Virus record (IMG/VR): IMGVR_UViG_3300010373_001378
Span: 1 to 33,451 of that record
Length of the DNA stretch: 33,451 nucleotides
From: a virus
Direction: 5' to 3' (one strand)
Position numbers and translations under genes: made by a program. Each line of letters starts with the position of its first letter. Within the stretch, counting starts at the first letter, position 1. The notes below the pieces were generated by a model that was not told the DNA's origin, made no database searches, and was given only the letters and a program-made list of their open reading frames with translations. Of the stretch, positions 1,439 to 9,097 are shown one piece after another.

Positions 1439-1836
1439 GATGCGCTCTCAGTTTCAGGTGCGGTCACGGCTACCATAAGATTTTCGATTACAGTATCAAA
1501 ACACACGTCACGCCCATCAATGGCGGAGCCTATGGCAGCGATAGCTTCCGCCGCCACCTTCCGAAGCTTTTCGTTCTCGGCTTTGATAGCATCAATCTCA
1601 TTGCTCTGATCGCCGATGAGCTTCGAGTAATTCCGGTTTAAAGACTTTATGGCATCGATCTCGTTCTGCTGCTTATCCCAAATATATTCCGCTATCGCTT
1701 TTTCAATTAATGACGCTCTCGGGAAAGTATCATTCATGAACTTATTGAATTTCTCAAAGTTCTCCCGTTTTCTGGGCCGCTCACCCTCTTCTTTCCACTC
1801 AAGCGATCCCGGCGCCCTATTCTTGCATTCGTCCAT
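1435..1836 (-). CDS. Hypothetical coiled-coil protein
   Basis: A 133-residue protein. I chose ATG 1836 over longer upstream starts because it overlaps the TAA of the ASCH gene (TAATG) and has an AGGAG site 8 bases upstream, and because the longer forms would run deep into that gene. Residues 1-45 are charged. Residues 46-100 form a helix with a duplicated motif (NEIDAIKSLNRNYSKL and NEIDAIKAENEKLRKV), a likely coiled coil. The C terminus ends in a short helix and TAPETESAS. It resembles the Ea22-like accessory proteins of lambdoid left arms in layout only. I cannot assign a function. Confidence 0.6.
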   Translation of the reverse strand: MDECKNRAPGSLEWKEEGERPRKRENFEKFNKFMNDTFPRASLIEKAIAEYIWDKQQNEIDAIKSLNRNYSKLIGDQSNEIDAIKAENEKLRKVAAEAIAAIGSAIDGRDVCFDTVIENLMVAVTAPETESAS

Positions 1837-2921
1837 TATTTGATTCTCCTGAAAATTATTACCCAGCAAAACGGATTTAAATCCCATGAGCCGGGGCCGT
1901 TGATCTTTTCCCATAATTCTCGATATTGCCGAACTGCCGTACACTCACAGTCTCCAAGCGCAAAACACCCCTCGGCGATCGCATCCGCTTCGCTTATATC
2001 CTGCAAGCGCTCGACGCGAATTTCAGTAATTTCCAGATCAATACGGGATGCCCACCTGGGCATGAAGCGAGCATGTCGATAGCGGCCTACGGTCTTGTTA
2101 GCTGACCAATCTCCATCAGCTTCATAAAGGATAGTTTCTTCACCGCTCATTTCGGATGGAGAAAGATCATTGTAGTAATCAGACTCGGTACGCCATGCTT
2201 CCCTGACCCATAGCTTTGTACCTACTTCGAATTTGCTATAGCCCAGATGGATGATTGGCTCATCCCAAGGATTCTCGCCGCGTGATGTTGGCTGCAAAGC
2301 CCCACAGAAATTGCCCACTTCAGATGGGAACGTTCCTCGTCCGTCAGCTTTGCTGCATGATGCTTCTCCCCCTCTATTCCATGTCCGTGCGCCTTCCTGT
2401 CCTGCCAATTCTCGTGCTGCGTTCCCCACACAAGATTCTCCGGACGATTGTTTTGTGGATCTCCGTCCAAGTGGCGAACTTGCATAGACTCCTTTTCCGG
2501 CATTCCATGGAAAGCCATGCATATCAGCCGATGAACGTGTTTCGTCACCTTTTTGTTTTCGTGGCACAACGACACACTCAAATACCCCTTCACGTTTTTG
2601 TGACCAACTAATGAGTACCAATCCACGTAATCCTTGCGACCAAAGCCTTTGTATTTCGTCCGTGAGTACACATGCCCATCGCTTCCGGCCATGTAATCCG
2701 AATTGGGAGATACGGGAATTGGCAGTAATGCCACATTGTTCGGCAACTGAATCGAGTTCATCACAAGCCCCTTCGTTTGTATGGACAACCTGTATTATAT
2801 CATCAGTAAGACGGTATATAAGATTAGGTTGCGGCTTCACAATTCGCCGCGTATGAGTCTTGTCATCCGCCTGAATCGGTGCAATATTCATTCCGCTCAT
2901 GAGTATGCCGCGCTCTTTCAT
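1836..2921 (-). CDS. ASCH-domain protein gene, interrupted by a nested HNH gene
   Basis: The ends of this 361-codon frame match phage ASCH-domain proteins. The start (MKERGILMSG, then KTHTRRIVKPQP, residues 1-32) and the C-terminal part (LWVREAW near 239-245, RHARFMPRWASRI, then RVERLQDISEADAIAEG and NGPGSWDLNPF) are the family hallmarks. Between about residues 50 and 215 the translation has no such character and lies opposite an HNH endonuclease gene in another frame of the same strand. The frame stays open across the insert. Without it the protein would be about 190-195 residues, normal for the family. ASCH domains are PUA-like and are thought to bind RNA. The product may be an inflated fusion, non-functional, or made in two pieces. 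Start ATG 2921 has a GAGAGG site. Confidence 0.7.
   Translation of the reverse strand: MKERGILMSGMNIAPIQADDKTHTRRIVKPQPNLIYRLTDDIIQVVHTNEGACDELDSVAEQCGITANSRISQFGLHGRKRWACVLTDEIQRLWSQGLRGLVLISWSQKREGVFECVVVPRKQKGDETRSSADMHGFPWNAGKGVYASSPLGRRSTKQSSGESCVGNAARELAGQEGARTWNRGGEASCSKADGRGTFPSEVGNFCGALQPTSRGENPWDEPIIHLGYSKFEVGTKLWVREAWRTESDYYNDLSPSEMSGEETILYEADGDWSANKTVGRYRHARFMPRWASRIDLEITEIRVERLQDISEADAIAEGCFALGDCECTAVRQYRELWEKINGPGSWDLNPFCWVIIFRRIK
2222..2761 (-). CDS. HNH homing endonuclease (free-standing, nested)
   Basis: A 179-residue endonuclease. An N-terminal NUMOD4-like part (VALLPIPVSPNSDYMAGSDG, residues 10-29) is followed by an HNH_3 core with HVHRLICMAFHG (75-86), VRHLDGDPQNNRPENLVWG (95-113) and ENWQDR (117-122). 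Key residues are H97, D99, N105, N109 and N118. The C-terminal part (LTDEERSHLKWAI...CSQHHAARILGMSQSSIWAI) is a helix-turn-helix of the kind that gives such enzymes DNA specificity. ATG 2761 follows a GAAGGGG site; a TTG at 2788 is a less likely start. The gene fills almost the entire insert in the ASCH gene, leaving no room for a group I intron core. It presumably cuts an uninterrupted ASCH allele of a co-infecting phage and spreads by repair. Confidence 0.88.
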   Translation of the reverse strand: MNSIQLPNNVALLPIPVSPNSDYMAGSDGHVYSRTKYKGFGRKDYVDWYSLVGHKNVKGYLSVSLCHENKKVTKHVHRLICMAFHGMPEKESMQVRHLDGDPQNNRPENLVWGTQHENWQDRKAHGHGIEGEKHHAAKLTDEERSHLKWAISVGLCSQHHAARILGMSQSSIWAIANSK

Positions 2922-8048: not shown

Positions 8049-8255
8049 ATGATAATCCAATACAGACCAGCACAACAATATTTGACCGATTTACGAACCA
8101 TTGCCGGGCTTTCGGATGCCGCAATAGCCGGAAAGGTTGGGATTTGTCGAACCACCATTTTTAGGCTCCGCATCGGCAGGCACAAAAAAACCTCTGATGA
8201 GATCGGAACAAAGATAGCGAATCTTCATGCTGCGGTTCTTAGGGGAAAATCGTGA
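8049..8255 (+). CDS. Cro-like HTH regulator
   Basis: A 68-residue DNA-binding protein: a helix (YLTDLRTIAGLS), then DAAIAGKVGICRTTIFRLRIGR as the helix-turn-helix, then a short helix. This is the right size and place for Cro, the first gene of the right operon, divergent from the repressor. ATG 8049 is chosen over an alternative start at 8019 because 8019 lies inside the promoter. No ribosome site precedes 8049, so a leaderless message is likely. It overlaps the methylase start as GTGA. Confidence 0.75.
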   Translation: MIIQYRPAQQYLTDLRTIAGLSDAAIAGKVGICRTTIFRLRIGRHKKTSDEIGTKIANLHAAVLRGKS

Positions 8256-9097
8256 AAGCTCCTACCCCAGCGCTACGCTACCACGGCGCCAAGTTTCGCC
8301 TAGCACCCTGGATCATGAGCTTCTTCCCTCAGCATCAAACATACACCGAGGCGTTCGGCGGTGCGGCCGGCGTACTGATTCAAAAAGAACGATCTTATGC
8401 TGAGGTCTACAACGATCTCGATGGCGACATAGTTAATTTCTTTCGGGTGTTGCAAAACTCCAGCTCGAGGGAAGAATTAATTAAGCAAGTGATCCTTACC
8501 CCGTATGCCAGGGAGGAATTTGAGCTTGCCTACGAAGAAACAGATGATCCGATTGAACGCGCAAGGCGGTTGGCGATAAGGGCTCAATGTGGTTTCGGAA
8601 GCGCTGGTGCGACAAAGGGCATAACCGGTTTCAGGATTGACACCAAGCGGGAATACAGCACGGCCCAGCATTTGTGGGCGCAATATCCTGACGCGATTGC
8701 GGCAGCAGGAATGCGTTTCTCCGGCGTTTTGATAGAAAACCGCCCAGCAATTGAAGTTCTACGCCAGCACGATAGCCCCGAAACCCTCCATTTTGTAGAT
8801 CCTCCGTACGTCCTATCCACCCGCGCAATCGGGGGGAATCGTTTTTATCAACATGAAATGGATGATCAGGCGCATATGGAATTGCTGGATACCCTACTCG
8901 AGCTGGAAGGTTTCGTGGTTCTTTCCGGTTATCCGAATCCAATTTACGAATCGAAGTTAACGGAATGGGACCGTTACGAGACTTCTGCGCGAATTTCGGC
9001 TGCGCGTGGCACGGCAAACAGGATAGAAGTCGCATGGATAAATCCTAAATGCGCAGAGGCGCTTCGACGTACTGGTCAACAGAGGATGTTCGCATGA
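8252..9097 (+). CDS. D12-class DNA N6-adenine methyltransferase
   Basis: A 281-residue Dam-like enzyme. RYHGAKFRLAPWI (9-21) and EAFGGAAG (33-40) form the S-adenosylmethionine site. NDLDGDIVNFFR (54-65) and the catalytic DPPY (183-186) complete the D12 signature. It methylates adenine in a short target, which could protect phage DNA from host restriction, mimic host methylation or time replication and expression. The start is GTG 8252, overlapping the upstream TGA and preceded by AGGGG 6 bases away. An adenine methylase straight after cro is unusual compared with lambda, but such enzymes are common in temperate phages. Confidence 0.9.
   Translation: MKAPTPALRYHGAKFRLAPWIMSFFPQHQTYTEAFGGAAGVLIQKERSYAEVYNDLDGDIVNFFRVLQNSSSREELIKQVILTPYAREEFELAYEETDDPIERARRLAIRAQCGFGSAGATKGITGFRIDTKREYSTAQHLWAQYPDAIAAAGMRFSGVLIENRPAIEVLRQHDSPETLHFVDPPYVLSTRAIGGNRFYQHEMDDQAHMELLDTLLELEGFVVLSGYPNPIYESKLTEWDRYETSARISAARGTANRIEVAWINPKCAEALRRTGQQRMFA

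Follow-up and report, generated by a model that had tools for sequence, protein, structure and literature searches.

A homing-type HNH endonuclease gene nested out of frame in phage ASCH-like genes, with the host reading frame kept free of stop codons

An ASCH-like gene and the HNH gene nested in it

The window, by which we mean the whole 33,451-bp stretch analysed, is an IMG/VR virus record in which the feature described here is adjoined by SSB, RecT-like and exonuclease genes, with terminase, portal, major head and internal virion protein genes farther along; the material consists of metagenomic assemblies only. A DNA methyltransferase gene (PHROG 56) at 8252-9097 on the plus strand is oriented opposite to the early genes. 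Two overlapping genes on the minus strand make up the feature, an ORF at 2222-2788 lying in the +1 frame relative to a 361-aa ORF at 1836-2921, with the following parts:

1836..2921, minus strand: host gene, a 361-codon ASCH-like frame that stays open through the insert (ORF list; PHROG 874 and 28019; Foldseek to YqfB and ASCH structures)
2762..2921, minus strand: N-terminal ASCH part, residues 1-53, with the K-T-x-T-R-R motif and the YRLTDDI segment (pLDDT mostly 78-95 over residues 1-50)
2844..2861, minus strand: KTHTRR, residues 21-26, probable motif counterpart of the YqfB catalytic Lys21/Thr24/Arg26
2796..2816, minus strand: YRLTDDI codons, upstream of the HNH start and conserved in most nested loci (alignment)
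2794..2822, minus strand: weak candidate sigma-70 promoter CTTATA-17-TATAAT upstream of HNH (P=0.055)
2222..2761, minus strand: HNH homing-type endonuclease gene, 179 aa plus stop, in the +1 frame relative to ASCH (HNH_3, PHROG 59, I-HmuI profile and fold)
2408..2542, minus strand: HNH_3 catalytic core (Pfam, residues 83-127 of the 188-aa ORF)
2222..2224, minus strand: HNH stop codon TAG, within the host codons for E-V-G just before LWVRE
1836..2221, minus strand: C-terminal ASCH part, LWVREAW ... MPRWASR ... NPFCWVIIF (PHROG match; pLDDT mostly 81-97)

The ends of the 361-codon frame encode an ASCH-like (PHROG 874, YqfB-fold) protein. Residues 216-361 match PHROG 874 (5e-50) and residues 1-37 match PHROG 28019, with no PHROG match in the middle of the frame. 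In the AlphaFold model both ASCH ends are confident and residues 118-225 fall below pLDDT 50; its top Foldseek matches are YqfB, EF3133 and an ASCH domain (probability 0.92-1.00, with E only ~0.01). The Pfam ASCH model PF04266 leaves the window frame unmatched and scores an uninterrupted relative (L058) at 16.2 bits, under the 21.2 cut-off, and because Pfam gave no ASCH call on the host frame the identification draws on PHROG 874, on homologues and on the fold. Over residues 50-215, similarity to other ASCH proteins occurs only in loci carrying the same HNH gene, and 46 uninterrupted ASCH genes lack the segment.

The phage family shares its fold and a K-T-x-T-x-R motif with YqfB and the ASCH-fold amidohydrolases; unlike them it is missed by the Pfam ASCH cut-off. 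In YqfB, Lys21, Thr24 and Arg26 are required, their mutants being inactive, and Glu74 aids greatly (PMC6972931). The K..T.R catalytic motif of YqfB is present in the window ASCH, and K21 and T24 of KTHTRR are near-invariant, with a Thr24-like residue absent from locus L004. By motif, counterparts of Lys21, Thr24 and Arg26 probably lie before the insert and a putative counterpart of Glu74 after it, so that a stop inside the insert would part the former from the latter.

Several annotations of uninterrupted or related ASCH genes appear to need revision. The uninterrupted gene OQ817832.1:24535-25848 (our L051 and L054) is annotated as 437 aa, of which the N-terminal extension is probably false and the true start near MKQRPIPF, and phage ASCH-like genes annotated as polynucleotide kinase/3'-phosphatase (ON470617.2:76531-77070) and as DNA primase (NC_050152.1:87034-87432) are probable misannotations. 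Downstream of the window ASCH, the GTG start listed at 1944 for the next ORF is probably not its real start; the ASCH stop and the start of that gene overlap as TAATG at 1834-1838, suggesting translational coupling.

An earlier note on this DNA had read the middle of the ASCH-ended frame as a second reading of an HNH gene, and the analysis bears this out more strongly than it claimed. The nested ORF belongs to HNH_3 (PF13392, E 2.8e-15) and PHROG 59 (2e-35), matches I-HmuI by profile (E 2e-19), and is modelled at pLDDT 91 with I-HmuI (1u3e, E 1.8e-7) as the sole Foldseek match under 0.001. Its conserved start is the ATG at 2761, giving a product of 179 aa, and not 2788-2790 as the note had it. 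Alignment of the relatives described below shows the HNH protein to be under purifying selection, since the protein is conserved while its third codon positions are saturated. Only about half of the nested loci have a clear Shine-Dalgarno-like sequence, and TTGACA/C-like boxes at 16-17 spacing occur in L005, L011, L019, L030 and L033 (P <=0.02); a conserved HNH promoter is suggestive in 5-6 loci only. Elsewhere among the HNH matches, L121:1501-1848 (NZ_CP119570.1) is antisense to the annotated hypothetical protein WP_276122585.1, possibly a gene called on the wrong strand.

Related loci and spread of the insert

Viral and bacterial contigs were searched with the HNH sequence and duplicates removed, duplicate contigs being identical. 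This yielded 15 further distinct loci with HNH relatives in ASCH genes, one of them a remnant, or 16 with the window. The HNH phase relative to the host frame is identical in all 16, and both ASCH ends share one frame in 14: the window and L003, L004, L005, L007, L011, L013, L014, L015, L020, L023 (host 3' end masked or cut), L030 (WVRE stretch absent), L031 and L033. The remaining two are damaged. At L019 the N-terminal ASCH part sits in another frame, and at L148:1946-2617, the one locus that the last three viral scans added, ASCH is mostly deleted to a C-terminal remnant while the overlapping frame across HNH is still open.

The same HNH family shows two other arrangements in ASCH genes, making three forms in all. 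At L032:2253-3482, where the HNH is 55% identical to that of the window, ASCH is split. The N-part stops ahead of HNH, and the C-part begins at a separate start that overlaps the end of HNH; the host frame does not stay open, and ASCH-C sits on a very long branch (3.9 vs a median of 0.8). In Aeromonas phage ST4 the ASCH contains an in-frame fusion of an HNH relative (40% identical); this HNH-ASCH protein (L045:1246-2352, OR261032.1, Aeromonas phage ST4_051) is annotated as hypothetical, and its ASCH middle, the WVRE stretch, is missing. L032 had at first been grouped with L034-L043 as a free-standing control and was rejected as such when it proved to be a split ASCH. Ibantik, AL2, Silence and a Pararhizobium plasmid have HNH relatives with overlapping annotations, but these are not nested alike.

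In the 46 uninterrupted ASCH genes a variable 40-76 residues separate the K-T-x-T-R-R motif from LWVRE, and most inserts fall in this stretch; the ends of the insert, whose exact mapping the earlier note proposed, are not fixed to the base. At L007 the insert can be placed shortly after the CPYG.xGD motif, because a stretch ending SRHRVGG..LWVRE is common to L007 and L074, the latter uninterrupted. The L019 and L030 inserts occupy another ASCH position, farther downstream, before RPSIxMP. YRLTDDRI occurs in 0 of the uninterrupted genes, whose corresponding stretch is hypervariable, and YRLTDDI/YRLTDDRI may be either native ASCH or part of the element. SWDEP, likewise suspected to be mobile-element sequence, is overlapped by HNH.

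With the L003 flanks joined as a query, 134 phage records matched over at least 80% of its length. In a tree of the ASCH C-terminal part (branch support weak) the interrupted copies are scattered, requiring 14 changes vs 14.4 with shuffled labels. HNH identity (50-81%) exceeds ASCH identity (31-57%) in 91 of 91 pairs, and the two are uncorrelated (r=-0.17). These comparisons show, at the level of sequence relatedness, a spread of HNH independent of the host gene, as expected of homing, with matching positions occupied in ASCH genes that are only distantly related.

Corresponding sites and a scattered distribution are also what a homing intron or intein would produce, and an unrecognised one might remove the insert at the RNA or protein level so that the fused protein never accumulates. 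We consider this very improbable. The earlier note had argued that there is no room for a self-splicing intron, and this holds: HNH takes up almost all of the insert, Rfam gave no match to a group I or II intron core in the window or the 15 loci, and a permissive search of 1836-2921, at E up to 5, gave just two snoRNA matches, both attributable to chance and both lying outside the insert. Nor would an intron spliced at the RNA level need an open host frame, whereas selection for openness is strong (next section). As for an intein, the endonuclease would be expected in the same frame as its host, whereas HNH lies in the +1 frame, and inspection of the 15 aligned host proteins revealed no conserved junction of a C-terminal His-Asn before a Cys/Ser/Thr nucleophile.

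Stop codons in the host frame

When synonymous codons were shuffled within each HNH gene, ~102 host-frame stops were expected across the 16 distinct loci and 0 are seen. For the window HNH the shuffled genes carry a mean of 8.8 host-frame stops, and 0 of 20,000 shuffles are stop-free, so that the earlier estimate of roughly 3 in 10,000 had been too generous to chance. The per-locus chance of no stop ranges from <5e-5 (window) up to 0.019; in AT-rich nested loci the host frame is open too, while the third frame holds up to 15 stops.

A host-frame stop arises where a T-ending HNH codon precedes AA, AG or GA, and the avoidance can therefore be examined codon by codon. Among codons with a T-ending synonym, T-ending codons occupy 0 of 560 stop-making positions vs 461 of 1662 positions elsewhere (Fisher 4e-67). 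The same test on 17 control HNH genes, comprising relatives that do not share the dual-frame arrangement, the ST4 gene with its in-frame fusion and ShiLan in its non-host frame, found no bias (269/716 vs 630/1657, P=0.85). These p-values take the loci as independent, which is nearly justified, since third positions at conserved four-fold codons are near-saturated, with 0.353 identity vs 0.305 under the null. For the same reason the open frame is not mere inheritance, because near-saturation would have lost an ancestor's openness without selection. The statistics thus show that selection on HNH third positions has kept the host frame stop-free, as judged from this set of sequences.

The earlier note had offered either such selection or a very recent invasion. 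Selection is upheld by the 16 open, near-saturated loci and by relatives that are not open, and recent invasion fails as a general explanation. That the frame simply happens to be open, with no time for decay, would be tolerable for the GC-rich L007, L014 and L020, where an open frame alone has P ~0.014-0.019; but HNH is mostly 50-70% identical between loci, the combined chance is <1e-50, and HNH relatives outside the arrangement have many stops in the corresponding frame, which leaves chance or recency a negligible candidate.

What is demonstrably selected is openness and not peptide sequence. Host-frame amino-acid identity is 0.304 vs 0.275 under the null, and the unused third frame has the same excess (0.320 vs 0.289); no amino-acid conservation specific to the host-frame peptide was found. 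This bears on the idea that the host-frame reading is overprinted sequence with a function of its own, as a domain or a separate protein under sequence selection, and that either HNH rides on it or it rides on HNH. The frame is indeed open in 16 of 16 loci, including L148 and L019 with their damaged ASCH, residues 79-118 are modelled with moderate confidence as a helix and strands, and net charge, proline and serine content deviate slightly. Against these stand the identity excess, no larger than that of the third frame, the disorder modelled for residues 118-225 and the want of any family match for the segment, and we regard an overprinted function as improbable. Proline avoidance in the host frame reached z -4.6 under a first null (controls -0.5), dropped to -2.8 with codon usage from unconstrained sites, and is not claimed.

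The strongest rival, though still an unlikely one, is translation continuity: genes downstream would be uncoupled or silenced by any stop in the insert, irrespective of whether the fused ASCH is functional. The ASCH stop overlaps the downstream ATG in the window, L002 and L004, and continuity would account for openness where ASCH is damaged. It sits poorly with ASCH itself, of which the active-site-type residues are kept on both sides of the insert in most nested loci and the C-part is as conserved in nested as in empty copies; at L003, moreover, the next gene begins 21 bases past the ASCH stop, without overlap.

A proposed persistence strategy and its known relatives

Homing endonuclease genes inside coding genes are usually explained by splicing or by tolerated splitting of the gene. 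The reading we favour, and think probable, is of an out-of-frame, non-spliced homing endonuclease element for which an open host frame substitutes for splicing. An I-HmuI-like HNH_3 gene would have entered ASCH genes in the +1 frame, leaving the downstream ASCH part in frame, and would be translated from its own ATG within the ASCH message. Its product would cut uninterrupted ASCH genes, repair of which would copy the element in. Ribosomes would also read straight through, making an ASCH protein whose halves are separated by ~180 mostly disordered residues, and the host would survive the insertion because this read-through yields a complete ASCH with a loop. Somewhat more tentatively, we think it likely that this represents a general third way to reside in a gene, as a dual-frame insert that is neither intron nor intein, in which synonymous codons keep the host readable and the host frame encodes an arbitrary loop.

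This interpretation must be tempered by L019, L030 and L148, where ASCH looks damaged despite an open frame; there, the decay must therefore be recent or the openness have another cause. Damaged nested hosts fit the known decay phase of homing elements, and another cause of openness is also possible.

Since selection for an open host frame is now shown statistically with internal controls, the arrangement becomes a testable persistence strategy. Host-frame stop avoidance can serve as a screen for further such elements, and the case cautions that a long 'hypothetical' insert in a phage protein may be no more than the second reading of a gene hidden there.

The gene for I-HmuI lies within a group I intron. 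The window HNH has sequence profile and fold in common with I-HmuI and other HNH_3 homing endonucleases, and differs in having no intron and in overlapping its host's reading frame. In endonuclease-split genes, mobE in Aeh1 nrdA and mobA in T4 gene 60, an HNH endonuclease likewise interrupts a coding gene with no intron involved and the host tolerates it, but those hosts are split into two polypeptides whereas the window keeps one open frame (PMC2988022). L032 is the split version within the HNH family of the window.

The closest precedent is the ShiLan domain, a hidden out-of-frame HNH in the gp65 DNA methylase of mycobacteriophage ShiLan and also in Pacc40 gp60 (Arsenault, Gosselin, Gogarten 2025, PMC11855218), and the earlier note's suggestion of an unusual form of homing needs correcting to that extent: a case of the same kind was published in 2025. 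Both have an HNH in another frame on the same strand, a stop-free host frame, no detectable intron or intein, a scattered distribution and, as the proposed outcome, a tolerated loop (PMC11855218). An alignment of the two HNH proteins (hhalign 85%) has its similarity centred on the HNH core. They differ in host gene, a DNA methylase there and ASCH here, and in frame, +2 for ShiLan and +1 for the window. The ShiLan HNH belongs to a different subfamily and is flanked by zinc fingers, of which none are visible in the window HNH, and the ShiLan-domain hosts all infect Mycobacterium. ShiLan is GC-rich, and in our shuffle test its frame alone is open with P=0.021, so that the single case could not exclude chance; the accessible text of PMC11855218 contains no selection test, whereas stop avoidance is tested here. 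No publication of an ASCH-gene version was found in the open-access literature. The kind of arrangement is therefore already published; what is new is the variant seen here, set apart by its ASCH host, its HNH subfamily, its relative frame and the test of selection.
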